Shown here: positions 1-16,859 of the stretch, one piece after another | Position numbering within the stretch: position 1 is the first letter of the stretch | Layout of the letters: every line of letters starts with the position of its first letter | Assembly: GCF_902498785.1 (NCBI RefSeq) | Contig: NZ_LR701493.1 | Span: 22,272-86,271 of the forward strand | Length of the DNA: 64,000 nt | Source: Sphingomonas sp. EC-HK361 | Lineage (GTDB): Bacteria; Pseudomonadota; Alphaproteobacteria; Sphingomonadales; Sphingomonadaceae | Reading direction: 5' to 3' | Translations under genes and position numbers: made by a program | The notes under the pieces: model-generated | What the model was told of the DNA's origin: nothing | The model's database searches: none | What the model saw: only the letters and a program-made list of their open reading frames with translations

Positions 1-2008
1 CGCCGGCCAGCGTGGCGGCCTGACGCTCCGCGCGCTGTTCCTCTTGATAGCCCTCGACCAAACCCCTGAGTGCCTCAAGATTCTGCAGGCGCTGCTCGGC
101 CTCGCCCCAGCGCAGGATTGTGTCGAGGACAGTGTCTGCGTGAAGCAACGCGTCGAGCACTTCGGCTGGCGTCAATTGCGGCGCACGCTCGCGGATCACC
201 GAGAGCGCTTCGGCGAACGGGAGCTGGGCGACGAGGCCCGCGCGTGCGTCGGCTTCGAAAACGGCGGCGAACCAGCCTTCGCCGTCTGTGCCGAGACGGG
301 CAAGCTCCGCGAGCGCGAGCGTGTCGCTGCCGTCGGCGATCCAGCGGAACGCGGAGAGCGCGAACTCGATCTCAGGTTGATCGAGAAGTCCCGAGCGCTC
401 GACGGCGACACGGACGCCGTGCGCCGCGAGCGCCGCCGCGAGATCGCTGACTTGCGCATTACTGCGGCAAAGCACCGCCACGTCGCCGCCGCGCGCACCG
501 CGCGTCGCACCACTCCGTTCGGTGACCGGCCAACCGGCGGGGTCGGCGAGCAGGCCGGCGATCCTGCTGGCGAGCATCGCCGTGCGCTCGTCCTTCCGCT
601 TGCCCGTCATCGGAAGGAAGGAAAGGGCGGCCGGGAATGCGGGATCCTCAGTCCGTGCGCATCCCTCGAAGCAGATCTCCTCCTCGGCCATGCCGACCCG
701 CAGCATGTTCGGGGCAATCGCGGCGTTCACGAAGTCCGCCAGTTGTGGCCGTGTCCGGAAGGAGCGGCGCAGATATGCCACCCCGCCGCCCGATGCTGCG
801 GTGATCGCCGCCGCCGCCGCCGTGGTGAGCGCCGGGTCGGCGTCGCGGAAACCATAGATCGACTGCTTCGGATCACCGACCCAGAGATTGCGGCCGGCAA
901 TGCGCGAAAGCGCGGTGAAAATGGCGATCTGGATCGGGCTGGAATCCTGAAACTCGTCGACGAAAACGGCACCGATCAGCTCGCGCAGTCGCGGGCCATT
1001 CGCCGGGTCGGAGATGATTTCGAGCGCAAGCATTTCCTGGTCGACGAAGTCGAGCAATCCTCGCGCACGCTTGTGCGCAGCATATGCCTCCATGCACCGC
1101 GCTGCGCAGTCGAACACAAGTTCGAGATAGCGACGGATGTCGGCTCTCAGCGCGGGATGACGAGGATGGGCAGCCGCAGCGGCGATCACTGCCGTGAACA
1201 GGCCCGCGTCGGCCTTGGTGGCGCCGAGCTTGGTGAGCCGCGCCCAGTCCGACCAGGGCAGCCTGTCGCCTGACGCCAGCGTCCGCAGGGTCTTCTCCAC
1301 GACGGGGACGTCCTTGGAGAGCGTCGTGGCCTTCAGACCTGCACGGCCACGCTCGACCTCGACCATGCACGCCTCGAGCGCTAGGCGGAGCGCTTGATCG
1401 AGGGCGTCGTCCGTTTCGCCCGCCGCCGCGGTGGGCAAGAGCGCGACAAGGCTCGCTGCCGAGCGCTCGGCGCAATGCGCGAGCCTGTCGGCGGCTATGC
1501 CATTAGAGCGCGCAAGGTCCACGGCGCGCCTGACCTCGTCATGCCATCCCCTGATAGTCCTGCCATGCATCGTGTAGCTGCGCGCCTGCAGGCCAAAGCG
1601 CTCGGCGACCTGCGCGATCGCCGGGCCACTCTCCTCGATCACGACGCCCACGGCGCGGGAAAACACCGCCGCCTGACGATCTTCGGCAATGATCTCGGCG
1701 ACCGGGGACCGTCCGAGCTCGAACGCGAACTCGGCAATCAGCGATCCGCACACTGAGTTCACGGTGCCGATGCGCGCCGAAAGCATCGCGGCCGCGAGAT
1801 CGGCGCGACCGCCCTCGATCAACCGGGCCCGGATACGTCCCGAGAGCTCCGCCGCGGCGCGCTTTGTGAAGGTTGTCGCGAGGACACGGTGCGGCGGTAT
1901 GCCGCCCATGACCTCCGCCACAATCTCTTCGACCAGGCGAAAGGTTTTGCCGGTGCCAGCGCTCGCGATGATCGTGTCGACCCTGTTCTGTACGCCAACC
2001 TCCGTCAT
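1..2008 (-). CDS. UvrD/AddA-type superfamily 1 DNA helicase (partial)
   Basis: The reading frame is open from the ATG at 2008 to the left edge, so the C-terminus is missing. The N-terminus has a Walker A motif ASAGTGKT at about residues 15-22. A DEFQDS motif II lies near residue 347 and a GDPKQSIYGFRD motif III near residue 377. These are hallmarks of UvrD/RecB/AddA helicases, which unwind DNA from ends using ATP. The start overlaps the stop of the upstream nuclease gene in an ATGA arrangement, so the two are probably translated together as an AddAB- or RecB-like pair. Whether a C-terminal nuclease domain follows cannot be seen. Inside an ICE the pair could serve DNA-end processing, recombination or defence; this is inference. 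Confidence 0.88.
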   Translation of the reverse strand, partial: MTEVGVQNRVDTIIASAGTGKTFRLVEEIVAEVMGGIPPHRVLATTFTKRAAAELSGRIRARLIEGGRADLAAAMLSARIGTVNSVCGSLIAEFAFELGRSPVAEIIAEDRQAAVFSRAVGVVIEESGPAIAQVAERFGLQARSYTMHGRTIRGWHDEVRRAVDLARSNGIAADRLAHCAERSAASLVALLPTAAAGETDDALDQALRLALEACMVEVERGRAGLKATTLSKDVPVVEKTLRTLASGDRLPWSDWARLTKLGATKADAGLFTAVIAAAAAHPRHPALRADIRRYLELVFDCAARCMEAYAAHKRARGLLDFVDQEMLALEIISDPANGPRLRELIGAVFVDEFQDSSPIQIAIFTALSRIAGRNLWVGDPKQSIYGFRDADPALTTAAAAAITAASGGGVAYLRRSFRTRPQLADFVNAAIAPNMLRVGMAEEEICFEGCARTEDPAFPAALSFLPMTGKRKDERTAMLASRIAGLLADPAGWPVTERSGATRGARGGDVAVLCRSNAQVSDLAAALAAHGVRVAVERSGLLDQPEIEFALSAFRWIADGSDTLALAELARLGTDGEGWFAAVFEADARAGLVAQLPFAEALSVIRERAPQLTPAEVLDALLHADTVLDTILRWGEAEQRLQNLEALRGLVEGYQEEQRAERQAATLAG

Positions 2009-4668
2009 GCGAGCCCCCTGACACGGCACAGCGTTGCATAGTCGCACCACCCGCAGTGCACATCGCGGGTGATGCCCAGTTCGGCGGGAATGCTGTCCTC
2101 AACACCTTGGACGCCTGTCGCGAGAATCGTCCCTGCCTCCGCTCCCGCCCGCCACGTCCGCCAACCCGCGAGGATCGCGGCCCAGGTGTCGGGAAAGGAG
2201 CGTGCCCCTTCGATGGGTCGCCCAACGAGGCCGCTGCCGACCAAGGTCAGGAACTGCCGCTGGTTCAACAGGAAGTAGCCAGCCCGGTAGGGTCCGCCGC
2301 CAGAGACCAGCGCGCCGTAGGTCGCGAGCTGGACTGCACGGCCCTTTGCAAGCTCGTCGACACGCGAACGGTCGCTACGCGTCCACTTCAGGTCCACGAT
2401 TACGGCGTTTCCGGAGCGGTCACGGGCGACGAGGTCGACCGACCCCTGCATCGCGAGCAGAGTCTCGAAAGTACCGCTGACCTGCTGCTCGGTCGCCTCT
2501 ACCGTCAGACCGTTCTCCGCGAGGCAGCTGGCGAGACTGGCCATGGCCGCAGGGAGTCGCCGGCGCGCCGAGTTCAGCTCCTCGGCGAACTCCGGGTGTC
2601 GGAGCGGCGCTGCCAGCTGGTCGATTCGTCCCTCGAGGAGAGCGGTCGCGCGCTGCTCAGCCTCCGCCAGTCCCGGTGGATCACCAGGCGCGAACACCTC
2701 GCGGGCGATCGCGTGAGCGAGATTCCCCAGCAGCTGATTGGCATCGGGAATCGAGCGGACGCGGCCGGGACGGAGCCGAGCCACATGCCGCAGGGCCCAC
2801 ATAAGCTGACAGGAGAAGAGATTCTCCAGCGACGTCGCGGACTCCGCCGTGTCGGCAACTCGCGCCGAAAACCCACTGGGCACGGACCAGGCGAATTGCG
2901 CAACGGGCAATGCTCGTGGCTCGATGGCCCGGCGCTCGATGGTCGTACCCGCGAGTTCGAGTGTCGGCCCGCGCAACGCTGCCTCGAGGGCAACCAGCGA
3001 CGCGATACGGTCCAGCGCAGGTTTCAGGCGATGGGCGAGCGGATGCGCCATCTCGTCCGCCTCACAACCCGGCCCGCCCGAGACGAAGACGATACGCTCG
3101 CGCGCGTTTATGACCGATCGCTCCCAGGCGGCGCTCGCGGCTCGGGCGGCCAGTGTCACGTCGTCGGCGGGACAGCCTGCGGCCGCGAGCTCCTGCCGCT
3201 CAGCTTCGGTCCACGGCGAGCGCGAGGCGCCCTCGCGCGTCGTGGAAAAATTCCACCAGACCACCGCGTCCCTCGGCGCCCAAATCGCACCCGGATGGGG
3301 GACGCTGCGCCATCGCGCGGCCTCGGCCTGTGAGCCGGGGTTCGGGTGCCCTGGGTCCAACGCTTGGTCTATCACCCGCTCGACCAGGAGACGCGGCACA
3401 AGATCTCGGCCAAGCGCTGCGAGCGCCGCACGCACCTCGCCCGACAATGTTGACGTCGAGGCATAGAGCAGGTCGCCGGTGGCAGCGTAGCGGCGGACCG
3501 CCCATGCGGTTACGCGCTCGCAGATGCCGAGCGCCTGGGCGAGCGGCATCCCGGAGGCCGCATCCGCCATTTCCAGCTCAGTCCACTCCCGCCACCGCGC
3601 CAGCCTGGGCTCGACGGCGGCAAGGGCGTCGGCGTCGCCTGCGGCGTACTCGCGCTCGGCAGTGGCGATCGCTTCCCATGCTTCAATCCATTCGGGGCCG
3701 CCGCGCCCGGGCGCCTGTTCGAGGGCAGAGGCGAGCCGCCGTGCTGCGCGCGGGGCGATGGGGGAGGCCGGGAAGATCAGCAGCTCCATCAGCGCCTGAG
3801 GATCGAAGGGTGCCCAAGACCCTCTGAAGGCCAGCAGCAAGAGCTGAAGGGAACCACGGTGGATCGACGACCGGCTCCGGCCAGCACGCGGTTGACCGAT
3901 TGCACTCAGCCCGTGGTCGAGGAGGTCAGTATCACCTTCCTGCGCGACCAGCGCCACCTCGCCGTCCTGACCGGCGAACCACTGACCCAGTACTTCGGCC
4001 GCGAGGGGCTCGCTTGCCGAGGTTGCCAAGGTCACGGAGCCGTCAGCACCGGGCTCGGGTACGATGCCATCGACGATCCACCTCTGCAGGCGGCCGAGCG
4101 ATGTGGCTGGCGCGGCAGCGGTACTGATCCCCACGTCCTCCACGATGCAACCGAGGGCTCGCAGCCGCTCCACAACGCGACGTAGCGGAGATGGGAGCAG
4201 GTGAGCGGAATCGATCAGACGGAGGCGAGTGATCGGCGAGGTGGTCAATCCGCCAAGCTTCGCGAGAATGGCGGCGATGCGATCAGCAAGGCCGGGAGCG
4301 AGATCCGTCGCCGATGTGGAGGCGATGGCAAGCTGGGTAAGCCGTTCACCACACCAGGATGCGTCGCCACGCCATCCGAGGCCGACGAGCTCGTCGCGCC
4401 AGCCAAGGAGGGTTCGCGCCGTAGCCCAAGGATCCATGGCGAGCGAGCGAGACCAGAAATAGTCGCCTTCGAGCGCTTCAAGAGTCGACTGGAATGCAGC
4501 GATCCGTACCACCTGGGGGCGGTGCGGACCGCCCAAGCCTACGGCCGTCTCAAGGATATCGACAAGGCCCACCGGGCCTACGACGGGCTGGCCTAGCGCC
4601 CCGGGCCCCTCGCCGCCGTGATCGGGGCTGGCGCCGCCATCTGCCCAAAGGCCAAACACTACGTCCAT
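2005..4668 (-). CDS. PD-(D/E)XK nuclease, AddB/RecB-like, with predicted Fe-S cluster
   Basis: This protein of about 887 residues has a C-terminal RecB-family nuclease core. A segment reading VIVDLKW carries the acidic and lysine residues of a PD-(D/E)XK site, followed by a QLATY motif typical of this family. It ends with CGWC-x5-C, and a fourth cysteine lies far upstream in FSCQLMW. This spacing matches the 4Fe-4S staple of AddB-type nucleases. The N-terminal part resembles an inactive helicase-like region. The ATG at 4668 was chosen because a GGGAGGG stretch precedes it; an in-frame ATG at 4695 lacks a ribosome site. The gene overlaps the downstream helicase gene by 4 bp. Family assignment is firm; the cellular role is inferred. 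Confidence 0.85.
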   Translation of the reverse strand: MDVVFGLWADGGASPDHGGEGPGALGQPVVGPVGLVDILETAVGLGGPHRPQVVRIAAFQSTLEALEGDYFWSRSLAMDPWATARTLLGWRDELVGLGWRGDASWCGERLTQLAIASTSATDLAPGLADRIAAILAKLGGLTTSPITRLRLIDSAHLLPSPLRRVVERLRALGCIVEDVGISTAAAPATSLGRLQRWIVDGIVPEPGADGSVTLATSASEPLAAEVLGQWFAGQDGEVALVAQEGDTDLLDHGLSAIGQPRAGRSRSSIHRGSLQLLLLAFRGSWAPFDPQALMELLIFPASPIAPRAARRLASALEQAPGRGGPEWIEAWEAIATAEREYAAGDADALAAVEPRLARWREWTELEMADAASGMPLAQALGICERVTAWAVRRYAATGDLLYASTSTLSGEVRAALAALGRDLVPRLLVERVIDQALDPGHPNPGSQAEAARWRSVPHPGAIWAPRDAVVWWNFSTTREGASRSPWTEAERQELAAAGCPADDVTLAARAASAAWERSVINARERIVFVSGGPGCEADEMAHPLAHRLKPALDRIASLVALEAALRGPTLELAGTTIERRAIEPRALPVAQFAWSVPSGFSARVADTAESATSLENLFSCQLMWALRHVARLRPGRVRSIPDANQLLGNLAHAIAREVFAPGDPPGLAEAEQRATALLEGRIDQLAAPLRHPEFAEELNSARRRLPAAMASLASCLAENGLTVEATEQQVSGTFETLLAMQGSVDLVARDRSGNAVIVDLKWTRSDRSRVDELAKGRAVQLATYGALVSGGGPYRAGYFLLNQRQFLTLVGSGLVGRPIEGARSFPDTWAAILAGWRTWRAGAEAGTILATGVQGVEDSIPAELGITRDVHCGWCDYATLCRVRGLA

Positions 4669-4730
4669 CTCAATATTCCCTCCCAAGGGAAGCATGTCAG
4701 TTCGATAGCGCTAGGCGCAACCGGCTTCGT

Positions 4731-4954: not shown

Positions 4955-6220
4955 TCAGACGTCTGACGCGTCGCCCGAAACCGCGCCTTCGCTGGGGCCG
5001 CGATAGTCGGAGAGCCGTTCGGCCTCGGTCAAGGGAATCTCGGTATCGGCAGGTGTTCTGGTTTTCTTCGCCGTGCGCACCGCCGATGGCGTGGTAGCAA
5101 CCTCGGCCATCACCGTGCGTGCAAGCTCCGGCCAAAAGCGTTTCAGGCGTCGCGACAGCCCGGCAAGCAAGCCCAATTCGGAATCGATATTGGACAAGGC
5201 CGCCGCGGGTGCCACCTCCAGCGCCCAGTGCGAGATCGCCGCCGCGTCCGTGCCTATCATGGCGCGGGTGGTGATTGGCGATGGGGTCGCACCCGACGCA
5301 ACATCGGGTTCGAAGACGTAGATCCAAGCTGGACACGGATCTTGCCGTTTTCTGCCAGGCGCAAGCAGACTCACCGTACCATCGCCGGCATCGGTCAGCA
5401 CCGGCGATCCGAGATGGCGTTGCCAGCTATCCCAGACCGAAGTCGGGATGGCGAGCACGCAACCGGCGCAGCGCTCGTGATGGCCAAGCTGAAACTTGAA
5501 CATCATCTGGTAGAATGTGCGTTTGAACACATTGGCGATATTGGGCCCTTCGACACCCTCGGACAGCCACCATTGATTCTCCTGCACGGTCTTGCCGAAG
5601 TTGGTGGGATGCATGCGCAACCCCTCGCGCAGGTTACGCACGGCATCGCGGTATGAGCCGTGGAAATCCATCGTCTGTATCTCAAGAATACCGAACCGCC
5701 CGATGTGCGGATGGCCATTCTCCATCGTCATTTCGACGATGGTCACGTCGAATGAGAATTCCGGAGATTGGTCGGTCGCAGGGATAGAGAGTTCACCGCT
5801 CGTCTTCTTGTCGAAATAGATGAAAACCGGCTGGCCGGCGTTCAGGCGGGTCGCAATATCTTCGCGCACATCGTTATGTCGGAGCGTGAGCGCCGGCGTG
5901 ACATAGGGATCGATGTCTGGCGACAGCGCGAACAACTGGCGGGTTGCCTGCTTGACGAGGTTGTCGCTGAGCGCCCGGTACGGGCAGACGAGCCAATCCT
6001 GGCGCGGTCCGTTACTCACGCTACTGATCGTACAGACGCCGCGCGCCGCGTCGGCCTTGATGCACTGGCGCGTCTCGTTGGTCGCGTCGCTGAGAAACGG
6101 GCAACGCTCGCTTTGCTGATCGGCGACAGAATCTGAGGTCGTGATCACCGTGGGATGAACCCGGTGACCGAACCATTCGCTGACGAAATTCCCGGGTGCG
6201 CCCGATCGCTTCCCCGACAT
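4955..6220 (-). CDS. NotI-family type II restriction endonuclease
   Basis: The 421-residue protein resembles R.NotI over its whole length, as I recall that sequence. Shared blocks include FGHRV near residue 17, RGVC near 60, DWLVCP near 75, SPEFSFD near 152, LEIQTMDFHGSY at 179-190, EGPN, NVFKRTFYQM and RCAG. Four N-terminal cysteines (40, 53, 63, 79) match the set that binds a single iron atom in NotI. Asp158, Glu180 and Gln182 align, with an offset of two, with the NotI catalytic residues D160, E182 and Q184. NotI cuts GCGGCCGC; the same specificity is plausible here but not proven. The start codon overlaps the methyltransferase stop as TAATG, so translation is probably coupled. R-M genes are common ICE cargo. 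Confidence 0.9.
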   Translation of the reverse strand: MSGKRSGAPGNFVSEWFGHRVHPTVITTSDSVADQQSERCPFLSDATNETRQCIKADAARGVCTISSVSNGPRQDWLVCPYRALSDNLVKQATRQLFALSPDIDPYVTPALTLRHNDVREDIATRLNAGQPVFIYFDKKTSGELSIPATDQSPEFSFDVTIVEMTMENGHPHIGRFGILEIQTMDFHGSYRDAVRNLREGLRMHPTNFGKTVQENQWWLSEGVEGPNIANVFKRTFYQMMFKFQLGHHERCAGCVLAIPTSVWDSWQRHLGSPVLTDAGDGTVSLLAPGRKRQDPCPAWIYVFEPDVASGATPSPITTRAMIGTDAAAISHWALEVAPAAALSNIDSELGLLAGLSRRLKRFWPELARTVMAEVATTPSAVRTAKKTRTPADTEIPLTEAERLSDYRGPSEGAVSGDASDV

Positions 6221-7473
6221 TATTCAGCCGCCACCAGCTCGGGAATGCGATACCGTGAGCGAACGCGTGCGGTGCCATCGAGCGCGTTGCCGCTCAGCAG
6301 CGCATGCAGCGATTCACCAACCGCCTTGCCTAGCAACGGCGGAACTGCATTCCCCACCTGGTCGTACTGCTGCGAATGATTGCCTTCGAACACGAACCAG
6401 TCCGGGAAACTCTGTATGCGGGCCGCTTCACGGATGCTGATCGTGCGGTGCTGGTCGGGATGCGTATATTCGCCCGACTTGGGATCACGAAAACGCGTGA
6501 TAATCGAGCGTGCGACACCATCCCACTGCATGCGGCGATAGCGGCGCGTATGATCCTTGCGGTGCGCGCGCTGCATGCCGGGCGGCAGCAGATCATGCGG
6601 CAGATCGCGCCAGTCCTGTCCGGGTTTCAGCAGGCTGATGCGCGCGATGTTGGCTTCAGATAGCCGCGCAGCATAGTGATTGTGCAAGCCCGTCGATCCG
6701 CTGCGCATGGCAAGCTGGTAAGGGCCCTTGGGCTTCCTGTCGTAGGTTGACTGGAAGCCTCCCGCCGCGATCGCCGGTAGGTCGGCGATTGCCGCCTCGA
6801 TTGACACGAACCCTTCGGTATCGACCGGAGCGATCGTCCGATTGGGCACGAGTTCGCCAATGCCACGGCGTCCATGTGTAGGGAGCGGGAAGCCGCCATC
6901 GATGGGCTGATCCAGGCGCCAGCCGATAAAGAACATCCGCCAGCGCATCTGCGGCACGCCATATTGCGCGGCCAGCAGCTCAGCGCACTCGACCCGGTAG
7001 CCGGCTTCGCGAAAGGCTCGACCAATCTCTCCCAGGACAGCGCCGCCATTTAAGGTAGCGAGCCCGGGGACATTTTCGATGACGACGCAACGCGGTTGAA
7101 GGTCGGTCGCCACGTTGAGGAAATGTTTGAAAAGGCCGTTTCGGGGATCCCAAATTTCACGCTGGCCGATGATACTGAACCCTTGGCACGGCGGCCCACC
7201 GACCAAGAGATCGAGTGCACCGACATCAAGATCGGTGCGATCCATGATTTCCCGCGCACTCAGTTTGCTGACATCGGTCTGGACAAACGGAATATGCGGA
7301 AAATTGCGTGCGTGGGTCAAAGCGCATGCCGGATCGATGTCAGAGCCGAACACCACGTCGAACCCCGCATTGGCCAGACCGAGCGTCAAGCCGCCCGCCC
7401 CGCAAAACAAATCCACGGCCGTGAGCCGGTTCTCGCGCGGGGATGGCGGGGCCAGAAGATAACGCGACCTCAT
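6220..7473 (-). CDS. DNA (cytosine-5-)-methyltransferase of the NotI-like system
   Basis: This 417-residue enzyme is expected to methylate a cytosine at C5 using S-adenosylmethionine, protecting the host from the adjacent endonuclease. The motif order is that of C5 methyltransferases. Motif I (DLFCGAGGLTLGL) lies at residues 21-33. Motif IV (GGPPCQGFS) has its catalytic Cys at 96. Motif VI (ENVPG) is at 133-137. A QYDQVGNAVPP motif X lies near the C-terminus. The region between motifs VIII and IX, which sets target specificity, cannot be read for sequence preference. The start overlaps the end of the RHH gene (ATGA), giving a regulator-methylase-endonuclease order. Confidence 0.93.
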   Translation of the reverse strand: MRSRYLLAPPSPRENRLTAVDLFCGAGGLTLGLANAGFDVVFGSDIDPACALTHARNFPHIPFVQTDVSKLSAREIMDRTDLDVGALDLLVGGPPCQGFSIIGQREIWDPRNGLFKHFLNVATDLQPRCVVIENVPGLATLNGGAVLGEIGRAFREAGYRVECAELLAAQYGVPQMRWRMFFIGWRLDQPIDGGFPLPTHGRRGIGELVPNRTIAPVDTEGFVSIEAAIADLPAIAAGGFQSTYDRKPKGPYQLAMRSGSTGLHNHYAARLSEANIARISLLKPGQDWRDLPHDLLPPGMQRAHRKDHTRRYRRMQWDGVARSIITRFRDPKSGEYTHPDQHRTISIREAARIQSFPDWFVFEGNHSQQYDQVGNAVPPLLGKAVGESLHALLSGNALDGTARVRSRYRIPELVAAE

Positions 7474-7649
7474 GCCTGCGGTCCCCGAAACAGCTCTTGC
7501 TGAACGGCAAATCGCTCGCGATCGAGATGCTCCCGGATGAGCCGGGCGATCAGCGTCGATTTCTTATAACCCTTAACCTTGCAATAGGCCTCAAACCGAT
7601 CGCTTTCCGCATCGGGCAACAGCACATGCACGCGCGCATTCTTCGTCAT
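7470..7649 (-). CDS. Small ribbon-helix-helix protein heading the R-M operon
   Basis: The predicted 59-residue protein begins TKNARVHVLLPD, a likely beta strand. A helix around SDRFEAYCKVKG and a second around KKSTLIARLIREHLD follow, which is the pattern of RHH/CopG DNA-binding proteins. It is the first gene of an operon in which stop and start codons overlap the methyltransferase gene. A role as controller of the R-M genes is inferred, because dedicated R-M controllers are usually helix-turn-helix proteins. An alternative start 12 codons upstream at 7685 has an AAGGAG about 10 bp before it and cannot be excluded. Confidence 0.65.
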   Translation of the reverse strand: MTKNARVHVLLPDAESDRFEAYCKVKGYKKSTLIARLIREHLDRERFAVQQELFRGPQA

Positions 7650-7749: not shown

Positions 7750-8179
7750 ACATAAATGGAACATTTCGTTTATAGCGCTCCGTTGGCAATTCAAAGTTCC
7801 CGTGTCAGGTGGTAAGCGCTGTCGTTTCCGTCTGTCCCACCCACAATTGGTCGCATGGCCTTAGCGGCGGATAAAACTGGCCACGCAATGTGTATGAATG
7901 ACCGTCTGGCTCCGGGAGCTGTCTGATGCCCCTAAGCGTCTATACCTGGGTCTTGGCAGCTTCAGTCGCCGACTAAACGAAGGTGCGCTTCCACGGCTGG
8001 CGCGCTTGACAACCTGACAGGCAGCTCACGGCCCACTTCCGGAAGTTGGTGAGGGTCCTGCATCCATCCCCGCTGTCCGGCGGGCCGTGAAAACGTATCT
8101 GGCGTCCCTAATCAGGCTCTGACGCGTTCGGCGTGATCAGCAGACTTTAGCGGCCGAGCCCGCGCAGACTGATTCTGGT
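7750..8179. other. Non-coding divergent region between the R-M and transfer operons
   Basis: About 430 bp without a convincing gene separates the leftward R-M operon from the rightward transfer operon. It is less GC-rich near 7745-7785. It should hold the promoter of the traG operon, but I see no clear consensus. Short ORFs here lack ribosome sites or recognisable products. Confidence 0.4.
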
Positions 8180-8195
8180 GCGGGCGGAGGCCCGC
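8180..8195 (+). promoter_or_regulatory. GC hairpin presenting the traG ribosome-binding site
   Basis: GCGGGC (8180-8185), GGAG (8186-8189) and GCCCGC (8190-8195) form a perfect 6-bp stem with the Shine-Dalgarno core as its 4-nt loop. It directly abuts the ATG at 8196. It is likely to limit translation of traG. Confidence 0.45.
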
Positions 8196-10232
8196 ATGAC
8201 CCCGACCAAATTACTCATCGGACAGATCATTGTCGTGTTCGCCATCGTACTGGCAGGCGTGTGGTTCGCAACCCAATGGGCTGCCGCCGAGCTTGCCTAC
8301 CAGCCCGAGCTTGGTCTGCCTTGGTTTGTCGCGTTCGGGCGTCCGATTTATGCCCCCTGGGCGCTGTTCGGCTGGTGGTTTTCGTTCGAGGCTTACGCAC
8401 CGACGATTTTCGAAGAAGCGGGCGCGATCGCAGCCGCGAGCGGCCTGACCGGATGCGCTGCGGCGATCTTCGGTTCCTTGTGGCGCGCCCGGCAGCGGCG
8501 AAACGTCACCACTTATGGGTCCGCTCGCTGGGCAATCGCCAAGGATATCCGCTTGGCCGGGCTTCTCACGGAAGCGGGCGTTTTCCTTGGCCGGACAGGG
8601 CCGCGCTATCTTCGGCATGACGGTCCCGAACATATCATGGCGTTTGCCCCGACCCGGAGCGGCAAAGGCGTGGGCCTGGTGGTTCCCACGTTGCTCGGCT
8701 GGTCCGGTTCGGCCGTCATCCACGACATCAAGGGCGAGAACTGGCAACTGACCGCCGGCTGGCGCCAGCGCTTCTCGCACTGCCTGCTGTTCAATCCGAC
8801 CGACGCACGCTCGGCGCGCTACAATCCGCTGCTCGAGGTGCGTCGCGGCACCGACGAGGTCCGCGACGTCCAGAACATCGCCGACGTCCTCGTCGATCCG
8901 GAAGGGGCGCTGGAACGCCGCAACCACTGGGAGAAGACGAGCCATTCGCTGCTGGTCGGCGCCATCCTGCACATTCTCTATGCCGAGGAGGAGAAGACGC
9001 TCGCCCGCGTCGCGTCCTTCCTGTCCGATCCGCAGCGCCCGTTCACCGCCACGCTGCGGCGAATGATGACGACCAACCATCTCGGGACCGCCGAAGCGCC
9101 GGTCGTCCATCCGGTTGTCGCATCCGCCGCGCGCGAAGTGCTCAACAAGTCCGAGAACGAGCGGTCCGGCGTCCTGTCGACGGCCATGTCGTTCCTCGGC
9201 CTCTACCGCGATCCGACGGTCGCGACGGTCACATCGCGCTGCGACTGGCGGATCGCCGATCTCGTCGAAGGCCAGTCGCCGGTCTCGCTCTACCTCGTGG
9301 TGCCGCCCTCGGACATCAGCCGCACCAAGCCGCTGATCCGCCTCGTGCTCAATCAGATCGGGCGCCGGCTGACGGAACATCTGCACGCCGAGCACGGCGC
9401 CAACGCGGCCGCTCGGCACAAGCTGCTGATGATGCTCGACGAGTTCCCGGCGCTCGGCCGCCTCGACTTCTTCGAGACGAGCCTTGCCTTTCTCGCTGGC
9501 TACGGCGTGCGCGCCTTCCTGATCGCTCAAAGCCTCAACCAGATCGAAAAGGCCTATGGCGAGCACAACGCCATTCTCGACAACTGCCACGTTCGAGTGG
9601 CGTTCGCGACCAACGATGAGCGGACCGCGAAGCGCATCTCCGATGCCCTCGGGACCGCGACCGAGCAGCGCGCAATGCGCAACTATGCCGGGCATCGTCT
9701 CGCTCCCTGGCTCGCCCATGTCATGGTCAGCCGGCAGGAGACCGCTCGCGCGCTGCTGACGCCGGGCGAGGTCATGCAGCTGCCCGCGACCGATGAGTTG
9801 GTCCTCGTCGCCGGCACACCGCCGATCCGGGCGACAAAACTGCGCTATTTCGAGGACGGGGCGTTCAAGGCGCGCGTATTGCCTCCACCGGCTCTCGCTA
9901 CCGGCGACTATGTCGATCGACCAGCCTCGCGGCCGGATGACTGGGCCGGCATCGTCCGTGGGATTGATGCGCGTCTCGGCGCCGCGAGCGATGAGGATGG
10001 CAGCGATAACGGCGGTGGGCTCGAACAGGCCCGTCATCCCGGCCAGGAACTTGATCGTCCGTCAGCGCCCGATCCGACCACTGCCGACCCGCTCGGTCTT
10101 GGCGCGGATGACGATGATGTCGCAGCCGACCAGCGCGCCATGGATCAGGCGCGCGCACTGGGCACGGCACGCACCGTCTACGCGATCGACGCCGCTGATC
10201 ATCGGCCCGGCGACCTGCAGCTGGACCTGTGA
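8196..10232 (+). CDS. traG: Type IV coupling protein, TraG/VirD4 family
   Basis: This 678-residue inner-membrane ATPase would link the relaxosome to the Trb secretion channel during conjugation. The N-terminus has a hydrophobic segment at residues 7-30 and another around 52-95, as in VirD4 proteins. Walker A APTRSGKG lies at 151-158 and a Walker B-like LLMMLDEFPALG is in the middle of the protein. The ATG at 8196 follows a GGAGG ribosome site at normal spacing; an upstream GTG at 8178 is less likely. The C-terminal 100 residues are acidic and low in complexity. The next gene starts on the stop codon (TGATG). The relaxase it would serve is not in the window. Confidence 0.93.
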   Translation: MTPTKLLIGQIIVVFAIVLAGVWFATQWAAAELAYQPELGLPWFVAFGRPIYAPWALFGWWFSFEAYAPTIFEEAGAIAAASGLTGCAAAIFGSLWRARQRRNVTTYGSARWAIAKDIRLAGLLTEAGVFLGRTGPRYLRHDGPEHIMAFAPTRSGKGVGLVVPTLLGWSGSAVIHDIKGENWQLTAGWRQRFSHCLLFNPTDARSARYNPLLEVRRGTDEVRDVQNIADVLVDPEGALERRNHWEKTSHSLLVGAILHILYAEEEKTLARVASFLSDPQRPFTATLRRMMTTNHLGTAEAPVVHPVVASAAREVLNKSENERSGVLSTAMSFLGLYRDPTVATVTSRCDWRIADLVEGQSPVSLYLVVPPSDISRTKPLIRLVLNQIGRRLTEHLHAEHGANAAARHKLLMMLDEFPALGRLDFFETSLAFLAGYGVRAFLIAQSLNQIEKAYGEHNAILDNCHVRVAFATNDERTAKRISDALGTATEQRAMRNYAGHRLAPWLAHVMVSRQETARALLTPGEVMQLPATDELVLVAGTPPIRATKLRYFEDGAFKARVLPPPALATGDYVDRPASRPDDWAGIVRGIDARLGAASDEDGSDNGGGLEQARHPGQELDRPSAPDPTTADPLGLGADDDDVAADQRAMDQARALGTARTVYAIDAADHRPGDLQLDL

Positions 10233-10651
10233 TGGTGGTCGAGAAAGTCCGTCACCAGCTGTTCCTCCCCAAGCCGGTTAGCGACCGTCTTGAAGCCCTC
10301 GCCGCAAAGCCGGGCGCGTCCAAGTCGGCGATCCTGACCGACGCCGTCACGGCCTGGTTGAACCGGCGCGGCGCCTCGGAACTCGAAGACAGGTTCGCCC
10401 TCCGGCTCGATCGCATGACGGCCGCGATCGGCAGGCTCGAGCGCGATGGCCATATCCAGATCGAGACACTGGCGCTGTTTGTCCGGTACGAACTGGCGAT
10501 CCAGGCTCCGCTCGCCGAGAACGATCATGCGGGCCGCGCGCTCGCGGCCAAGCGGTTCGAGGCCTTCATCGCGCAGGTCGGCAGGCAAGTCGCCGCCGGA
10601 CGACGGACAATCGCCGACGGGTTCGCCGGCGCCGCGGAGTCCGGCCAGTGA
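10232..10651 (+). CDS. RHH/CopG-like protein of the transfer operon
   Basis: The 139-residue protein starts with a strand (VRHQLFLPKPVSDRL) and helices (SKSAILTDAVTAWL) typical of ribbon-helix-helix proteins. A charged helical C-terminal half follows. Genes of this type sit between traG and trbB in Tn4371-like ICEs and are annotated as CopG-family regulators. A role in autoregulating the tra/trb operon or assisting the relaxosome is inferred. It overlaps traG by one base and trbB by four (GTGA). Confidence 0.75.
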   Translation: MVVEKVRHQLFLPKPVSDRLEALAAKPGASKSAILTDAVTAWLNRRGASELEDRFALRLDRMTAAIGRLERDGHIQIETLALFVRYELAIQAPLAENDHAGRALAAKRFEAFIAQVGRQVAAGRRTIADGFAGAAESGQ

Positions 10652-11637
10652 CCGCCGGCATTTCCGCGGAGCGCCGCCGCGCAATGCTGCGCACGGCTAT
10701 GGGGCCGGCAATCGCCGAAGCGCTTGCCGATCCCCGCGTCATCGAGATCATGGTCAACCCCGACGGGGCGCTGCGGCTCGACCGGCTCGGCGAAGGCCGC
10801 ACCGATACCACTGTCCGCATGGATTGCGCCCAGGTCGAGCGGATCATCCGCCTCGTCGCGTCCCACGCTCGCGCCGAGGTCCATGGCGACGCGCCGATCG
10901 TGTCGGCAGAGCTGCCGCCCCACATCGAAGGCCGCGCTGGCGAACGGTTCGAAGGCGTGTTGCCCCCCGTATCGACCGCGCCGTGCTTCTCGATCCGCAA
11001 GCCCGCAGAGCGGCTCTACAGCCTCGACGACTATGTCGCCGACGGCATCATGGGCCAAGCCGCCGCCGATCGTCTCAAGGCCTGCGTCACCCAGCGTTAC
11101 AACATCCTGGTCGCTGGCGGCACGAGCTCGGGCAAGACAACACTCGCCAACGCGCTGCTCGCCGAGATGGCCTGGGTCGACGAGCGCGTCATCCTGATCG
11201 AGGACACGCGCGAGTTGCAGAGCCCGGCCGCTGATACGGTCGCGCTGCGCACGCGGCCCGGCATAGTGACGATGGCCGACCTAATCCGCTCGACTTTGCG
11301 GCTGCGTCCCGACCGCATCATCGTGGGCGAGGTTCGCGGCCCCGAGGCGCTCGACATGCTCAAGGCCTGGAACACCGGGCACCCGGGCGGCATCGCCACC
11401 GTTCACGCCAATAGCGCGATGTCGGCGCTCTATCGCATTGAAGGCCTGGTCCAGGAAGCGGTGGTCACCGTGCCGCGCCGGCTGATCGCCGAAGCAATCG
11501 ACATTATCGTCTTTATCTCCGGCCGCGGCCTCCAGCGCCGGATCACCAGCATTGCGCGCGTCGCCGGGCTCGACCCGGACACAGGAAGCTACGCGCTCGC
11601 CGACCTCCTCAACCCCGCCAACCCCCAAGGAGAATGA
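10648..11637 (+). CDS. trbB: Conjugal transfer ATPase TrbB (VirB11 family)
   Basis: The 329-residue hexameric secretion ATPase is expected to work at the cytoplasmic base of the mating apparatus. It has a Walker A motif GGTSSGKT at residues 157-164. An Asp box (LIEDTRELQ), a Walker B region (RPDRIIVGEVRGPEA) and a His box (TGHPGGIATVHANS) follow. The GTG start overlaps the preceding stop codon and the next gene starts at its end (ATGA), so the operon is tightly coupled. Length is normal for TrbB. Confidence 0.95.
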   Translation: MTAGISAERRRAMLRTAMGPAIAEALADPRVIEIMVNPDGALRLDRLGEGRTDTTVRMDCAQVERIIRLVASHARAEVHGDAPIVSAELPPHIEGRAGERFEGVLPPVSTAPCFSIRKPAERLYSLDDYVADGIMGQAAADRLKACVTQRYNILVAGGTSSGKTTLANALLAEMAWVDERVILIEDTRELQSPAADTVALRTRPGIVTMADLIRSTLRLRPDRIIVGEVRGPEALDMLKAWNTGHPGGIATVHANSAMSALYRIEGLVQEAVVTVPRRLIAEAIDIIVFISGRGLQRRITSIARVAGLDPDTGSYALADLLNPANPQGE

Positions 11638-11975
11638 CCGTGCAACTTGCCAAGATACCGTCCCGCAGCTCAACCTTCCTCGTCGGCGCCGCTTGTCTGC
11701 TGACCCTCGCCGTCAACAATTCCGCGCAGGCGGCAGGGTCGGGAATGCCCTGGGAACAGCCGCTCCAGCAGGTTCTGGAATCGGTGCAGGGGCCGGTCGC
11801 CAAGATCGTCGCCGTCATCGTCATCATCGTCACCGGCCTGACTCTGGCGTTTGGCGAAAGCAGCGGTGGCTTCCGGCGCCTCATCCAGATCGTGTTCGGG
11901 CTGTCGATCGCGTTCGCGGCGTCGAGCTTCTTCCTCAGCTTCTTCAGCTTCGGCGGTGGAGCGCTGATCGCGTGA
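11634..11975 (+). CDS. trbC: Conjugal pilin TrbC (VirB2 family)
   Basis: This 113-residue protein is the presumed major pilus subunit. A signal sequence ends near residue 34 (SAQA), followed by a short soluble part and two hydrophobic segments at about 58-76 and 83-108. This is the VirB2/TrbC layout. In RP4 the TrbC pilin is cyclised; whether this one is cannot be told from sequence. It is flanked by trbB and trbD with 4-bp overlaps on both sides. Confidence 0.92.
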   Translation: MTVQLAKIPSRSSTFLVGAACLLTLAVNNSAQAAGSGMPWEQPLQQVLESVQGPVAKIVAVIVIIVTGLTLAFGESSGGFRRLIQIVFGLSIAFAASSFFLSFFSFGGGALIA

Positions 11976-12259
11976 TCGGTCCAAATTCCTTTCACGGCGC
12001 TCAGCATCTGGAAGGCTACGAGGCTCCCATCCACGGGAGCCTCGGTTCGCCGATCCTGCTCGGCGGCGCACCGCGCGGGATCGCGATCGTCAACGGCACG
12101 ATCGCGGCCGCGGTCGGGCTCGGCCTCCAGCAATGGATTGCCGGCCTGGTGCTCTGGGCGGTCGGGCACAGCATCGCCGTGTTCGCAGCGCGCCGCGACC
12201 CTGATTTCGCACCCGTTCTGATCCGCCACCTCCGCCAGAAGGGCTATTTCTCGTGCTGA
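11972..12259 (+). CDS. trbD: Conjugal transfer protein TrbD (VirB3 family)
   Basis: A GTG start at 11972 overlapping the trbC stop gives a 95-residue protein. It has hydrophobic segments around residues 35-70, including GIAIVNGTIAAAVGLGLQQW. The segment after them, FAARRDPDFAPVLIRHLRQ, is the family signature DPxF...R. TrbD is a small inner-membrane component that works with TrbE. The end overlaps trbE by 7 bp. Confidence 0.9.
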   Translation: MIGPNSFHGAQHLEGYEAPIHGSLGSPILLGGAPRGIAIVNGTIAAAVGLGLQQWIAGLVLWAVGHSIAVFAARRDPDFAPVLIRHLRQKGYFSC

Positions 12260-14691
12260 ACCTTGCCGAATACCGCCACCGAGCCGACCGACTGGCGGAC
12301 CATCTTCCCTGGGCGGCGCTGATCGCAACCGGCGTCATCCTCAACAAGGATGGCAGCTTCCAGCGCACACTGCGATTTCGCGGTCCCGATCTCGAATCCG
12401 CGACCGAAGCCGAGCTGATCTCCGCCTGCGCGCGGGCCAACAACGTGCTCAAGCGCTTCGGCACCGGCTGGGCCTTGTTCTTCGAAGCGGAGCGGCGTGA
12501 GGCGTCCGCTTATCCCGACAGCTCCTTTTCCGACCCGGCGTCCTGGCTGGTCGATCAGGAACGGTCCGCCAACTTCATGGCCGAGGGCGAGCATTACGAG
12601 AGCCGCTACTATCTGACGCTGACCTGGCTCCCGACGCCGGACAGCGCCGAGGCGGCGGGGCGGTCGCTGGTCGAACGTCCGGATGCCGACAAGGGTCGAG
12701 ACTGGCATGGTGCGCTTTCCAGCTTCATCGCCGAGAGCGATCGCGCGCTCGACCTGCTTGCGAGCTTCATGCCCGAGGTGCGCGCGCTCGATGACGCGGA
12801 GACGTTGACGTTTCTGCACGGGACGATTTCTTCACGCCGGCATCGTGTCGCCGTCCCGGAGACGCCGATCTATCTCGACGCGCTGCTCGCCGACACGCCG
12901 CTCACCGGCGGTCTCGAGCCAAGGCTCGGCGACGAGCACATCCGCACGCTGACCGTGCTTGGCTTTCCGAGCATGAGCCGTCCCGGCATTCTCGACGCGC
13001 TCAACCATCAGGACTTCGCCTATCGCTGGGTGACGCGCTTCATCGCGCTCGACAAGAGCGATGCGACCAAGGCGCTGACCAAGCTGCGCCGCCAGTGGTT
13101 CAACAAGCGCAAGTCGATCACCGCGCTGCTGCGCGAGATCATGTACAACCAGCCCTCGCAACTGCTCGACACCGACGCCGACAACAAGGTGGTCGATGCC
13201 GACCTCGCGCTGCAGGTTCTGGGCGGCGACCATGTCGCGTTCGGATATCTGACGACGACCATCACGGTGACCGACGCCGATCGCGCGGGCGTAGAAGACA
13301 AGGTTCGCCAGGTCGAGCGGATCGTCAACGGGCTGGGGTTCACGACAATCCGCGAGGGCGTGAACGCCGTTGAGGCGTGGCTCTCGTCGCTGCCCGGTCA
13401 GACCTATGCCAACGTCCGCCAGCCGCTCGTTCACACGCTGAACCTGGCCCATCTGATGCCGCTGTCATCGGTCTGGGCGGGACCGGCGCGCAACGCCCAT
13501 CTCGACGGGCCGCCATTGCTCCACGCCAGCACCGCCGGATCGACACCGTTCCGCCTGTCGACCCATGTCGGGGACGTCGGACACATGCTCGTGGTCGGGC
13601 CGACCGGCGCCGGCAAGTCCGTCCTGCTCGCGCTGATCGCGCTTCAGTTCCGGCGATACGCGGGCTCGCAGGTCTACATTTTCGACAAGGGATTCTCCGC
13701 ACGCGCCGCGGTGCTGGCGATGGGCGGCGCGCATCACGCGCTGGGATTGGGAGCCGACGCGGGAGAGACGCTGGCGTTCCAGCCACTTCGCCGGATCGAT
13801 GATTCCACGGAGCGGAGCTGGGCGGCCGAATGGATTGCCGCACTGCTCGCGCACGAGAAGGTCGCGGTCACTCCCGAGGTCAAGGATGCGGTCTGGTCCG
13901 CGCTCGGCAGTCTGGCGTCCGCGCCGGCGGAAGAGCGCACGCTGACTGGCCTAACCTTGCTGCTCCAGTCGAATGCGCTTCGAACTGCGCTTGGCGCCTA
14001 CACGCTCGACGGTCCCTACGGCCGGCTGCTCGACGCTGCCGAACAGCAATTCGCCTTTGCCGATGTCCAATGCTTCGAGACCGAGGCGCTGATGGGGCAA
14101 GCGGGCGTGGTCGCGCCGGTGCTGACCTATCTCTTCCACCGGCTCGAAGAGCGGTTCGATGGGCGACCGACCCTGTTGATCCTCGACGAGGCGTGGATCT
14201 TTCTCGATCATCCGCTGTTCGCCGCGCGCATCCGCGAATGGCTGAAGGTGCTGCGCAAGAAGAATGTCGCGGTGCTGTTCGCGACCCAGAGCCTGGCCGA
14301 CATCGCGTCGAGCAGCATCGCGCCGGCCATCATCGAGAGCTGCCCGCAGCGCATCCTGCTACCCAACGACCGCGCGATCGAACCGCAGAGCCGCGAAGCC
14401 TATGAGCGGTTCGGCCTCAACGACCGGCAGATCGAGCTGATCAGCCGCGCGAGCCCCAAGCGGCAATATTATCTGCAATCCGCGCGCGGCAACCGGCTCT
14501 TCGAGCTCGGCCTTGGGCCGGTCGCGCTGGCGCTGTGCGGCGCCTCCGATCCGGCCACGCAGACGCGGATCGACGCGATGATCGCCGATGGCGGTCAGGC
14601 GGACTTTGCGGCGCGGTTCCTGAGCGCCGCCGGCCTCGAATGGGCTGCCGACCTTCTCCCCGATTTCCCCGCCCACCAAGCAAAGGAGTAA
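12253..14691 (+). CDS. trbE: Conjugal transfer ATPase TrbE (VirB4 family)
   Basis: The 812-residue protein is the large ATPase powering pilus assembly and DNA translocation. The N-terminal CagE/TrbE domain starts with LNLAEYRHRADRL. Walker A GPTGAGKS lies at residues 449-456 and Walker B LLILDEAWIFL near residue 645, followed by VLFATQSLADI. The GTG start at 12253 lies within the end of trbD. Length and motif order are normal for TrbE. Confidence 0.95.
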   Translation: MLNLAEYRHRADRLADHLPWAALIATGVILNKDGSFQRTLRFRGPDLESATEAELISACARANNVLKRFGTGWALFFEAERREASAYPDSSFSDPASWLVDQERSANFMAEGEHYESRYYLTLTWLPTPDSAEAAGRSLVERPDADKGRDWHGALSSFIAESDRALDLLASFMPEVRALDDAETLTFLHGTISSRRHRVAVPETPIYLDALLADTPLTGGLEPRLGDEHIRTLTVLGFPSMSRPGILDALNHQDFAYRWVTRFIALDKSDATKALTKLRRQWFNKRKSITALLREIMYNQPSQLLDTDADNKVVDADLALQVLGGDHVAFGYLTTTITVTDADRAGVEDKVRQVERIVNGLGFTTIREGVNAVEAWLSSLPGQTYANVRQPLVHTLNLAHLMPLSSVWAGPARNAHLDGPPLLHASTAGSTPFRLSTHVGDVGHMLVVGPTGAGKSVLLALIALQFRRYAGSQVYIFDKGFSARAAVLAMGGAHHALGLGADAGETLAFQPLRRIDDSTERSWAAEWIAALLAHEKVAVTPEVKDAVWSALGSLASAPAEERTLTGLTLLLQSNALRTALGAYTLDGPYGRLLDAAEQQFAFADVQCFETEALMGQAGVVAPVLTYLFHRLEERFDGRPTLLILDEAWIFLDHPLFAARIREWLKVLRKKNVAVLFATQSLADIASSSIAPAIIESCPQRILLPNDRAIEPQSREAYERFGLNDRQIELISRASPKRQYYLQSARGNRLFELGLGPVALALCGASDPATQTRIDAMIADGGQADFAARFLSAAGLEWAADLLPDFPAHQAKE

Positions 14692-14695
14692 TGTG

Positions 14696-15442
14696 ATGCG
14701 TTTCTTCACCAGCAAATATCTGATCGCGAGCGCGCTCGGTCTGAGCGCCGCCAGCTCGCTCGCCATAGGCCTGAGCCTGACGACGACGCCGGCCCATGCG
14801 CAACTGACCGTGTTCGATCCGAGCAATTACAGCCAGAACCTGCTGACCGCTGCGCGGACGCTGACGCAGATCAACAACCAGATCCAGTCGCTCCAGAATC
14901 AGGCGCAAAGCCTGATCAACCAGGCCAAGAACCTGACGCGGATCGACTTCCCCGAGCTCCAGGCGCTGACGCAGACGCTCCAGCAGATCGACCGGCTCAT
15001 GGGTCAGGCGCAGGGTATCAGGCTCCAGGTTTCCGGGCTCGACCAGCAGTTCCGCCAGCTCTTCCCGCAAAGCTTCGGACAAGCGCTTCGGCTGAACGAC
15101 CAGGTGATCGCGGCGCGCGGCCGGCTCGATACCGCGATGACCGCTTACCAGCACACCATGACGGTGCAGGCGCAGGTCGCCGAAAACGTCCAGGCCGATG
15201 CGCAGACGCTCGCATCGATCGTCGCCAAGAGCCAGGGTGCCGAAGGGGCGCTGCAGGCACAACAGGCGACCAACCAGCTGCTTGCGCTGTCCGCCAAGCA
15301 GCAATTCCAGATCCAGAACATGATGGCCGCGCAATATCGCGCCGAGACGATCGAACGCGCCCGGGAGGCGCAGGCACAGATCGACGCCCAGGCAGCGACC
15401 ACCAAGTTCCTCGGTTCCGGCACCGCCTACACCCCCCAGTAG
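14696..15442 (+). CDS. trbJ: Conjugal transfer protein TrbJ (VirB5 family)
   Basis: This 248-residue protein is the minor pilus-tip or periplasmic component. It has a signal peptide ending in PAHA just before Gln, and long glutamine-rich helices (TQINNQIQSLQNQAQSLINQ) as in TrbJ. The ATG at 14696 was preferred because AGGAG lies 8 bp upstream; a GTG at 14693 is in frame. The gene is followed by a strong stem-loop and then trbL. A trbK entry-exclusion gene, often present at this point, is absent. Confidence 0.92.
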   Translation: MRFFTSKYLIASALGLSAASSLAIGLSLTTTPAHAQLTVFDPSNYSQNLLTAARTLTQINNQIQSLQNQAQSLINQAKNLTRIDFPELQALTQTLQQIDRLMGQAQGIRLQVSGLDQQFRQLFPQSFGQALRLNDQVIAARGRLDTAMTAYQHTMTVQAQVAENVQADAQTLASIVAKSQGAEGALQAQQATNQLLALSAKQQFQIQNMMAAQYRAETIERAREAQAQIDAQAATTKFLGSGTAYTPQ

Positions 15443-15487
15443 GCCTGGCCGGTCGAGGCGGCGGCGGTCCGCCTCCCGTCGCCGTCC

Positions 15488-15529
15488 GCCGCGGGGCGGG
15501 GCCTCGCTCCCCCGGTCTCGCCCCGCGGC
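15488..15529 (+). terminator. Stem-loop between trbJ and trbL
   Basis: GCCGCGGGGCG (15488-15498) pairs perfectly with CGCCCCGCGGC (15519-15529) around a 20-nt loop. There is no U-tract, so it looks more like an attenuator, an RNA processing site or a stability element inside the operon than a full terminator. Confidence 0.45.
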
Positions 15530-15557
15530 ATCTCTCCTCTCGCAGGACTTGTCCGAC

Positions 15558-16859
15558 GTGAACGATCTCAATGTCATCGACCGCTTCATGCAGGCGTTCA
15601 TCACTTACATCGACGCCGGCTTCGGGCTGCTGGGCGGTGATGTCCGCTTCCTCACCGTCACGTTGATCGGCATCGATATCACGCTGGCCGGGCTCTTCTG
15701 GGCGCTGGGCGGCGAGGACAACGTCATCGGCCGCTTTCTCAAGAAGATCCTCTACATCGGCGCGTTCGCGTTCATCCTGAACAGCTTCTCGACGCTCGGC
15801 GACATCATCTTTCGCTCCTTCGCGCAGGCGGGTCTTACCGCGGGCGGTGGCACGTTGACCGCCGCCGATCTTCTGAAGCCGGGGCGCCTGGCCGGGACTG
15901 GGTTCTCGGCGGCGTGGCCGCTGCTCCAGCAGGTGTCGCAGCTGATGGGGTTCACGACCTTCTTCGACAATTTCCTGACGATCGCCGTGCTGCTCTTTGC
16001 CTGGGCGATCGTCATCATCACCTTCTTCATCCTCGCGGTGCAGATGTTCGTGACGATCATCGAGTTCAAACTGACCTCGCTGGCCGGCTTCATTCTCGTG
16101 CCGTTCGCACTCTGGAATCGCACTAGCTTCCTTGCCGAGCGCGTGCTCGGCAATGTCGTCTCATCCGGCATCAAGGTGATGGTGCTCGCCGTCATCGTCG
16201 GCATCGGCTCGAATTTCTTCACCGAGTTCACCAACGCCTTGCAGGGCCAGGAGCCCGACATCGCGCAAGCCATGAGCCTGACGCTCGCCAGCCTGACGAT
16301 CTTCGGCCTCGGCATCTTCGGCCCCGGCATCGCGTCGGGCCTGGTCTCGGGCGCCCCGCAATTGGGTGCGGGCGCAGCGCTTGGCACAACTGTCGGTGCC
16401 GCCGGAATCACAATGCTCGCAGGCGGTGCGGCCGTCGGAGGCGCACGCGCCCTCGGCGGCGCTGCACTCGGTGCCGTTCGCGCCGGTACTTCAATGGGAT
16501 CGGCCGCCTCGACCGCCTATACGCTGGGCAAGGAAACTGCCGCAGCGCCGACGATGGGCGCAGGCCTGGGCGGCGTCGCACGGGCCGCAGGGAATGCCGC
16601 GCGTGATCGCGTTTCCAATGCCTTCGGCCTCCGCGAGGCGGCCTCGCAAGGGAGCGCTGCCGCGTGGAAGGCGCTCAATCGCACTGGCGGCGATGCTGCT
16701 TCTTCGGCCGCGGCCGACGACGGGGCACCCGGTTGGGCTCGCGACATGCGCAATCAGCAGACGGCCCGCCACCATCGTCAGATTGCCCTCCACACCCTCC
16801 AGCAAGGCGATCGCGGCGGCGCCTCCGCCACCCCCGACATCAAGGAAAGGGACGACTGA
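15558..16859 (+). CDS. trbL: Conjugal transfer protein TrbL (VirB6 family)
   Basis: The 433-residue polytopic inner-membrane protein has about six hydrophobic segments, mostly between residues 20 and 310. An Ala/Gly-rich hydrophilic C-terminal tail follows, as usual for TrbL. It forms part of the channel through which DNA leaves the cell. The GTG at 15558 gives the standard family N-terminus (NDLNVIDRF) and lies 10 bp after AGGA; a TTG at 15549 is too close to that site. Its stop overlaps the trbF start (TGATG). Confidence 0.93.
   Translation: MNDLNVIDRFMQAFITYIDAGFGLLGGDVRFLTVTLIGIDITLAGLFWALGGEDNVIGRFLKKILYIGAFAFILNSFSTLGDIIFRSFAQAGLTAGGGTLTAADLLKPGRLAGTGFSAAWPLLQQVSQLMGFTTFFDNFLTIAVLLFAWAIVIITFFILAVQMFVTIIEFKLTSLAGFILVPFALWNRTSFLAERVLGNVVSSGIKVMVLAVIVGIGSNFFTEFTNALQGQEPDIAQAMSLTLASLTIFGLGIFGPGIASGLVSGAPQLGAGAALGTTVGAAGITMLAGGAAVGGARALGGAALGAVRAGTSMGSAASTAYTLGKETAAAPTMGAGLGGVARAAGNAARDRVSNAFGLREAASQGSAAAWKALNRTGGDAASSAAADDGAPGWARDMRNQQTARHHRQIALHTLQQGDRGGASATPDIKERDD

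Follow-up and report, generated by a model that had tools for sequence, protein, structure and literature searches.

A NotI-type restriction endonuclease and its adjacent m5C methyltransferase in the setting of an integrative conjugative element

Introduction

What kind of enzyme stands behind a NotI-like reading frame on a bacterial mobile element, what would protect host DNA from it, and which site would it cut? NotI is in standard use as a rare cutter, a single structure family has been solved for it, and its target is taken here to be GC^GGCCGC. Relatives of NotI are candidates for enzymes with a different sensitivity to methylation, and intact relatives accompanied by two classes of methylase offer a test case from nature for the re-pairing of a restriction enzyme with its protector. 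The locus considered here lies in a window of 64,000 nucleotides (the whole stretch of DNA that was analysed). A first-pass annotation had described the gene as a close R.NotI homologue with few relatives, carried on a conjugative element, and had considered that carriage notable.

The endonuclease and its match to R.NotI

The reading frame is as annotated, and its assignment as an R.NotI homologue holds. In a phmmer search (E up to 1), R.NotI (3bvq/3c25) is the sole PDB match of the encoded protein, at E 4.1e-88, with no unrelated family appearing; chance resemblance is ruled out by this value. The match is full-length (query 10-369 on R.NotI chain 12-369). Cysteines 40, 53, 63 and 79, together with D158, E180 and Q182, were correctly placed; they align with C42, C55, C65 and C81 and with D160, E182 and Q184 of NotI, the latter three forming the catalytic D...E-x-Q in which Q replaces K. 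For NotI itself, a review (PMC4081073) describes iron as required in the Cys4 motif and Q where the catalytic K is usual.

The word "close" was too strong, as 158 of 356 aligned residues are identical between the window endonuclease and R.NotI (~44%), and R.NotI shows 38-45% identity to each homologue in a comparison of 29, the window's included. At the same time, NotI has the same residue at 66 of the 71 positions that do not vary among 28 homologues, including all four cysteines and the D/E/Q residues. As far as its sequence tells, the window endonuclease is a genuine full-length R.NotI homologue, intact and with the metal-site and catalytic residues conserved. No model was matched in Pfam (E up to 0.1; scanned minus the first residue), NCBIfam (E up to 1) or PADLOC (E up to 0.001), so surveys using those libraries may overlook the endonuclease and report the methylase alone.

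The operon and its small gene

Two adjacent genes, which the first-pass annotation missed, encode an m5C methyltransferase and a small ribbon-helix-helix (RHH)-like protein (Table 1). The methyltransferase stop and the endonuclease start share one base (TAATG), and the end of the 59-aa frame overlaps the methyltransferase start by ATGA. As in Type II restriction-modification (R-M) systems, a separate DNA methyltransferase gene thus adjoins the endonuclease. This m5C methyltransferase would supply the protection of host DNA; from linkage in 11 loci we infer that it protects the endonuclease's target. Compared with the related loci L001 and L002, changes in all three genes are concentrated at third codon positions, with an excess of about threefold over first and second positions in the endonuclease; all three coding sequences are under constraint. 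GC content is 61% in the R-M genes, compared with 66-68% in the transfer genes and in the DNA beyond the tRNA on its right. Promoter-like and terminator-like sites number two each, against 1.0 and 3.0 in shuffles.

Table 1. Features of the R-M operon and its surroundings in the window
Feature	Position	Strand	Evidence and remarks
UvrD-like helicase, cut by window edge, neighbouring cargo	1..2050	-	PF00580 E 5e-38
PD-(D/E)XK nuclease, 896 aa, neighbouring cargo	2005..4695	-	PF12705 E 4.3e-23
NotI-type restriction endonuclease	4955..6220	-	421 aa, ATG start; phmmer to R.NotI; Cys4 and D/E/Q kept
C5-cytosine DNA methyltransferase, 417 aa	6220..7473	-	PF00145 E 9.5e-62
Small ribbon-helix-helix-like protein, 59 aa, putative operon regulator	7470..7649	-	Homologues in same place at related loci
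TraG/VirD4 coupling protein	8178..10232	+	PF02534 E 1.1e-101; 78% identical to L033 TraG
Trb conjugation operon (trbB, C, D, E, J, L, F, G, I)	10648..19784	+	Pfam; tblastn to L033 genes
Tyrosine integrase	20594..21817	-	PF00589 E 4.1e-21, PF13356 E 2e-23
tRNA-Leu (CAG), probable integration site at element's right end	21991..22077	-	ARAGORN; placement inferred

Homologues of the small gene occupy the same place at 6 of 10 related loci (L001, L002, L003, L005, L008 and L028; tblastn E 4e-15 to 1e-23). At L004 a different ORF, which passes the Pfam RHH_1 cut-off, takes its place, and no small RHH-like gene is seen at L006, L007 and L010. The 11 m5C-clade loci, window included, are therefore divided into seven with the same gene, one with another and three with none. 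The window's own protein matches Pfam RHH models weakly and under every cut-off (RHH_5 E 0.056); its weak matches are DUF6290 and ribbon-helix-helix models, none of them helix-turn-helix, and the plasmid collection holds no match to it (E 0.01). At L003 (1365-1580) the frame of the RHH-like gene is broken in the assembly, with methyltransferase and endonuclease intact.

The mobile element

The conjugative element proposed around the gene is borne out by TraG, the Trb operon and an integrase beside tRNA-Leu. Type IV secretion genes stand with a coupling protein, and the integrase lies at a tRNA gene, both of which are expected of an integrative conjugative element (ICE); the placement of the R-M operon on such an element is well supported. 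The traG/trb proteins are 67-86% identical to annotated genes of the Sphingomonas plasmid L033 (the copG-like gene 44%), and among plasmids the transfer region is matched best by one from Sphingomonas, at 77.7% identity over 44% of 16 kb, which points to an alphaproteobacterial origin; the called starts of trbF and trbG are uncertain. To the right of tRNA-Leu follows a gene of ordinary chromosomal type. On the left the element runs off the window edge, so that its left end is not within the window; no attachment repeat was found in 1-23500, and no relaxase was seen in the scanned part of the window's gene calls to the left of the integrase. On the far side of the R-M operon (1-4695), the UvrD-like helicase and the PD-(D/E)XK nuclease make up an AddAB-like pair, for which PADLOC returned only helicase-domain matches, such as GajB.

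No ICE synteny with other R-M loci was detected in flanks of at most 10 kb a side. Two relatives also occupy mobile settings. L003 adjoins a DUF6538 protein, presumably carrying a recombinase-associated domain, and in L008 (15-17612) the NotI-like operon is surrounded by an island that contains helicases, two serine recombinases and Vsr together with two methyltransferases, one a second m5C enzyme and the other of the N6_N4 type; a terminase-like gene lies nearby.

Relatives and their partner methyltransferases

NotI-type enzymes are more numerous than had been supposed. The homologue set contains 29 members, 27 of them loci from a scan of GTDB species genomes and two from a scan of viral contigs; a second viral-contig scan returned the same two carriers, L029 and L057 being one contig. 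To these are added 20 plasmid records with divergent relatives, 14 of which are annotated as "NotI family restriction endonuclease", and six further records annotated in the same way. Fourteen of the 20 plasmid records are typed conjugative, and conjugative carriage is less notable than first thought in the wider family. Divergent NotI-type systems are already common on plasmids, and novelty of mobile carriage was rejected. Phage records gave one weak match to the endonuclease (24.8%).

The window endonuclease is 75-43% identical to its homologues (the L027 fragment aside), and these fall into two groups by partner. An m5C methyltransferase homologous to the window's stands beside the endonuclease at 10 of the 29 loci as well as in the window, and a methyltransferase with an SPPY motif (N6_N4_Mtase) is the partner at 18; L027 is a 65-residue fragment with no partner visible. 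Judging from the motif, the SPPY enzymes probably produce m4C. Their gene lies directly upstream of the endonuclease in 15 of the 18 loci, is cut by the contig edge in L016, and is found 1.2 kb downstream on the other strand in L022. In L026 (8981-11125) it is fused in frame to the NotI-like endonuclease, giving a protein of 714 aa whose endonuclease part keeps the four N-terminal cysteines. PF01555 (N6_N4_Mtase) was matched by this fusion and by the three SPPY proteins scanned, and the SPPY proteins form one family, that of L009 being 62-95% identical to 15 others compared.

The endonuclease was found in 5 of 295 Streptomyces genomes, three already in the set; among 385 genomes of the class of L003 (E up to 1e-10), it was found in L003's own genome only. 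In 397 genomes of one actinobacterial order the single match was an already-known one (42%), and neither these genomes nor the plasmids offered a close NotI orthologue that would reveal NotI's own methylase. In a literature search covering few subscription journals, neither a NotI methyltransferase nor a NotI-type system on an ICE was found described, and no methylome data on GCGGCCGC came up.

Across the wider NotI family the m5C pairing is widespread. The window methyltransferase has 40-44% matches in seven plasmid records that were opened (H42, H45, H46, H72, H22, H24 and H26), and in all seven a "NotI family restriction endonuclease" gene neighbours the methyltransferase, convergently in H72. 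Eight weaker matches of 31-37% (H68, H69, H71, H73, H74, H75, H77 and H80) had no NotI-family gene annotated within 2-3 kb, in a gene table that is incomplete. There were also three genome matches: L053 adjoins a NotI-family enzyme, the contig edge truncates L054, and no such enzyme was found near L055. In L037 (plasmid pBN5, 2650-5461) the NotI-family R-M pair has an annotated very short patch repair gene as its neighbour, as is expected for an m5C methylase.

Phylogeny of the two enzymes

The endonuclease tree (37 rows) was rooted on the plasmid enzymes, seven of which, all divergent, form one group (100/100). R.NotI, included as had been suggested, branches outside the rest of the core (85/82). 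The 11 m5C rows make up one group (93/97, not starred). The SPPY rows require two changes on this tree, and a single SPPY clade is compatible with the data (p-AU 0.45; 0.37 with NotI included). The class of the companion methylase follows the endonuclease tree, which is new in the present analysis. Between endonucleases paired with different methylase classes there is hardly any difference: a single aligned position, 144, is fixed differently in the m5C and SPPY clades (L vs I). In the methyltransferase tree the 11 core rows are grouped (90/99), and the plasmid NotI partners are grouped with L054 (96/93); no single clade joining core m5C rows and plasmid NotI partners is resolved in it.

The target octamer

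The octamer GCGGCCGC, cited earlier as present in the window, occurs there 14 times. The site at 12104-12111 was given correctly, and the second one lies at 46452-46459 rather than 46453-46460. Shuffles of the window have a mean of 18.8 occurrences, and 85 of 100 have at least 14, so this presence is at the level of composition.

In host genomes GCGGCCGC was counted against an expectation from its 7-mers and inner 6-mer. Eighteen genomes were covered (18 of the 27 genome loci, plus L012, which shares the genome of L009), leaving out the hosts of L013, L015, L016, L018, L019, L023, L026 and L027. The octamer is not depleted in nine m5C-clade hosts (observed/expected 0.75-0.94, median 0.82), and site depletion was rejected as proof of specificity for this clade. 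Seven SPPY-clade Streptomyces hosts (five of the 18 counted and two found in the Streptomyces scan) gave 0.10, 0.17, 0.22, 0.47, 0.71, 0.77 and 0.93, and four other SPPY hosts 0.50-0.86. The value 0.22 belongs to the genome that carries two NotI-like R-M systems (L009 and L012) on separate contigs. As controls, 40 of the 290 Streptomyces without a match had a median of 0.82, with two at 0.11 and 0.19. Values below 0.25 were thus seen in 3 of 7 SPPY Streptomyces vs 2 of 40 controls (Fisher p 0.019; Mann-Whitney p 0.017 for the same comparison), both tests being weak, after-the-fact statistics picked once the first counts had been seen. The two depleted controls, G430 (0.19) and G433 (0.11), yielded no NotI-like endonuclease; a profile search, run with no positive control, found no NotI-like gene in 16 controls, these two included.

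These counts mildly support GCGGCCGC as the target of the SPPY group. For the window's group, whose own hosts give no trace, the same octamer is a plausible target and the simplest guess, because NotI lies outside both groups. Both m4C and m5C are able to protect sites from restriction enzymes generally, according to a paper that makes no mention of NotI (PMC4705667).

What the operon may do

We consider it likely that the three genes form a Type II R-M operon (RHH-like regulator, m5C methyltransferase and NotI-type endonuclease), carried as cargo next to traG on an ICE by tRNA-Leu, and that this operon methylates and cuts GCGGCCGC and serves both in defence and in the killing of element-free cells. 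As a module it appears functional, both for defence and for its own maintenance. The element would deliver the regulator, methylase and endonuclease on one message; the methyltransferase would put 5-methylcytosine into GCGGCCGC, shielding host and element, and the endonuclease would cut the unmethylated octamer as GC^GGCCGC. On entry to a new cell, methylation would be kept ahead of cutting by translational coupling and by the RHH-like protein, a putative autorepressor by analogy with Omega and PaaR. Phages and rival elements would then be restricted, and cells losing the element would be killed.

At 44% identity to NotI the specificity can differ, and the operon might be a NotI-fold R-M system for a related target, such as CGGCCG, the hexamer inside the octamer, or some other palindrome rich in G+C, its m5C methyltransferase being matched to that target. 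This would suit the distance from NotI, a companion methyltransferase of another class than that of the SPPY clade, the undepleted octamer in nine hosts, and the 42-44% relationship of the window methyltransferase to those of divergent NotI-type systems. We nevertheless regard a different target as unlikely, since NotI has 66 of the 71 invariant positions in common, one position distinguishes the m5C from the SPPY enzymes, CGGCCG has an observed/expected of 0.86 in the window, and the m5C clade is flanked on the plasmid-rooted tree by NotI and by the SPPY clade, with GCGGCCGC depleted in three of seven Streptomyces hosts of the latter. The operon could also act mainly in stabilising the element by addiction, with little effect on phages. 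Its position as cargo of a conjugative element and a gene order like that of RHH-antitoxin-toxin operons fit such a role, and phage genomes that are small or A+T-rich seldom contain a given 8-bp site. Addiction is compatible with defence rather than exclusive of it, and the octamer is frequent in this G+C-rich setting (14 per 64 kb), so phages of like composition would be targets; as the main function, addiction seems rather unlikely to us. Some conjugative elements are known to carry methyltransferases that shield incoming DNA, and the endonuclease might be decayed or silent, leaving a methyltransferase that guards the element from NotI-type enzymes of recipients. With the frame intact, every catalytic and metal-site residue kept, and the roughly threefold excess of third-position differences in the endonuclease gene, this is very improbable.

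Returning to the preferred reading of a complete R-M operon directed at GCGGCCGC, it is possible, and put forward tentatively, that an octamer-reading lineage swapped the chemistry of its protector with the endonuclease nearly unchanged, having m5C and an RHH regulator in the mobile proteobacterial systems and an SPPY, m4C-type enzyme in actinobacterial and other ones. If this exchange took place, either of two marks on a single site blocks NotI-type enzymes, and the m5C branch represents a transferable form under regulation, with the architecture of toxin-antitoxin operons of the Omega or PaaR type.

Comparison with known systems

The nearest characterised enzyme, R.NotI (PDB 3bvq, 3c25), is like the window endonuclease in the full-length match, the Cys4 metal site and the D/E/Q catalytic residues, and differs in sequence (~44% identity) and in a C-terminal extension of about 50 residues. 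The SPPY-partnered systems of Actinomycetota and others have the same invariant residues in endonucleases that are 43-54% identical (best segment), whereas their companion is an N6_N4_Mtase with an SPPY motif instead of an m5C enzyme, and no RHH-like gene was recognised by eye upstream of the methyltransferase in 15 loci. The divergent "NotI family" systems of proteobacterial plasmids, often conjugative, come nearer in their methyltransferase, which is of the m5C class and 40-44% identical to the window's across the seven records opened, with 42-44% for the three that were aligned; an RHH-type ORF precedes it in L030, L032, L036, L037 and L053 and was not seen in L031 and L034. Their endonuclease is the part that differs, being shorter (~281-344 aa) and about 25% identical over 61-64% of the query.

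In regulation, the operon resembles C-protein-controlled R-M systems in having a small regulator gene. C proteins bind via helix-turn-helix, as stated in a review (PMC3874152), whereas the window gene looks ribbon-helix-helix and its function is putative. The same review (PMC3874152) describes Omega and PaaR as small RHH proteins, strictly repressors, encoded ahead of antitoxin and toxin genes. With these toxin-antitoxin operons the window shares its gene order, in which an RHH-type gene comes first, then the protector, and then the toxin or, here, the endonuclease.
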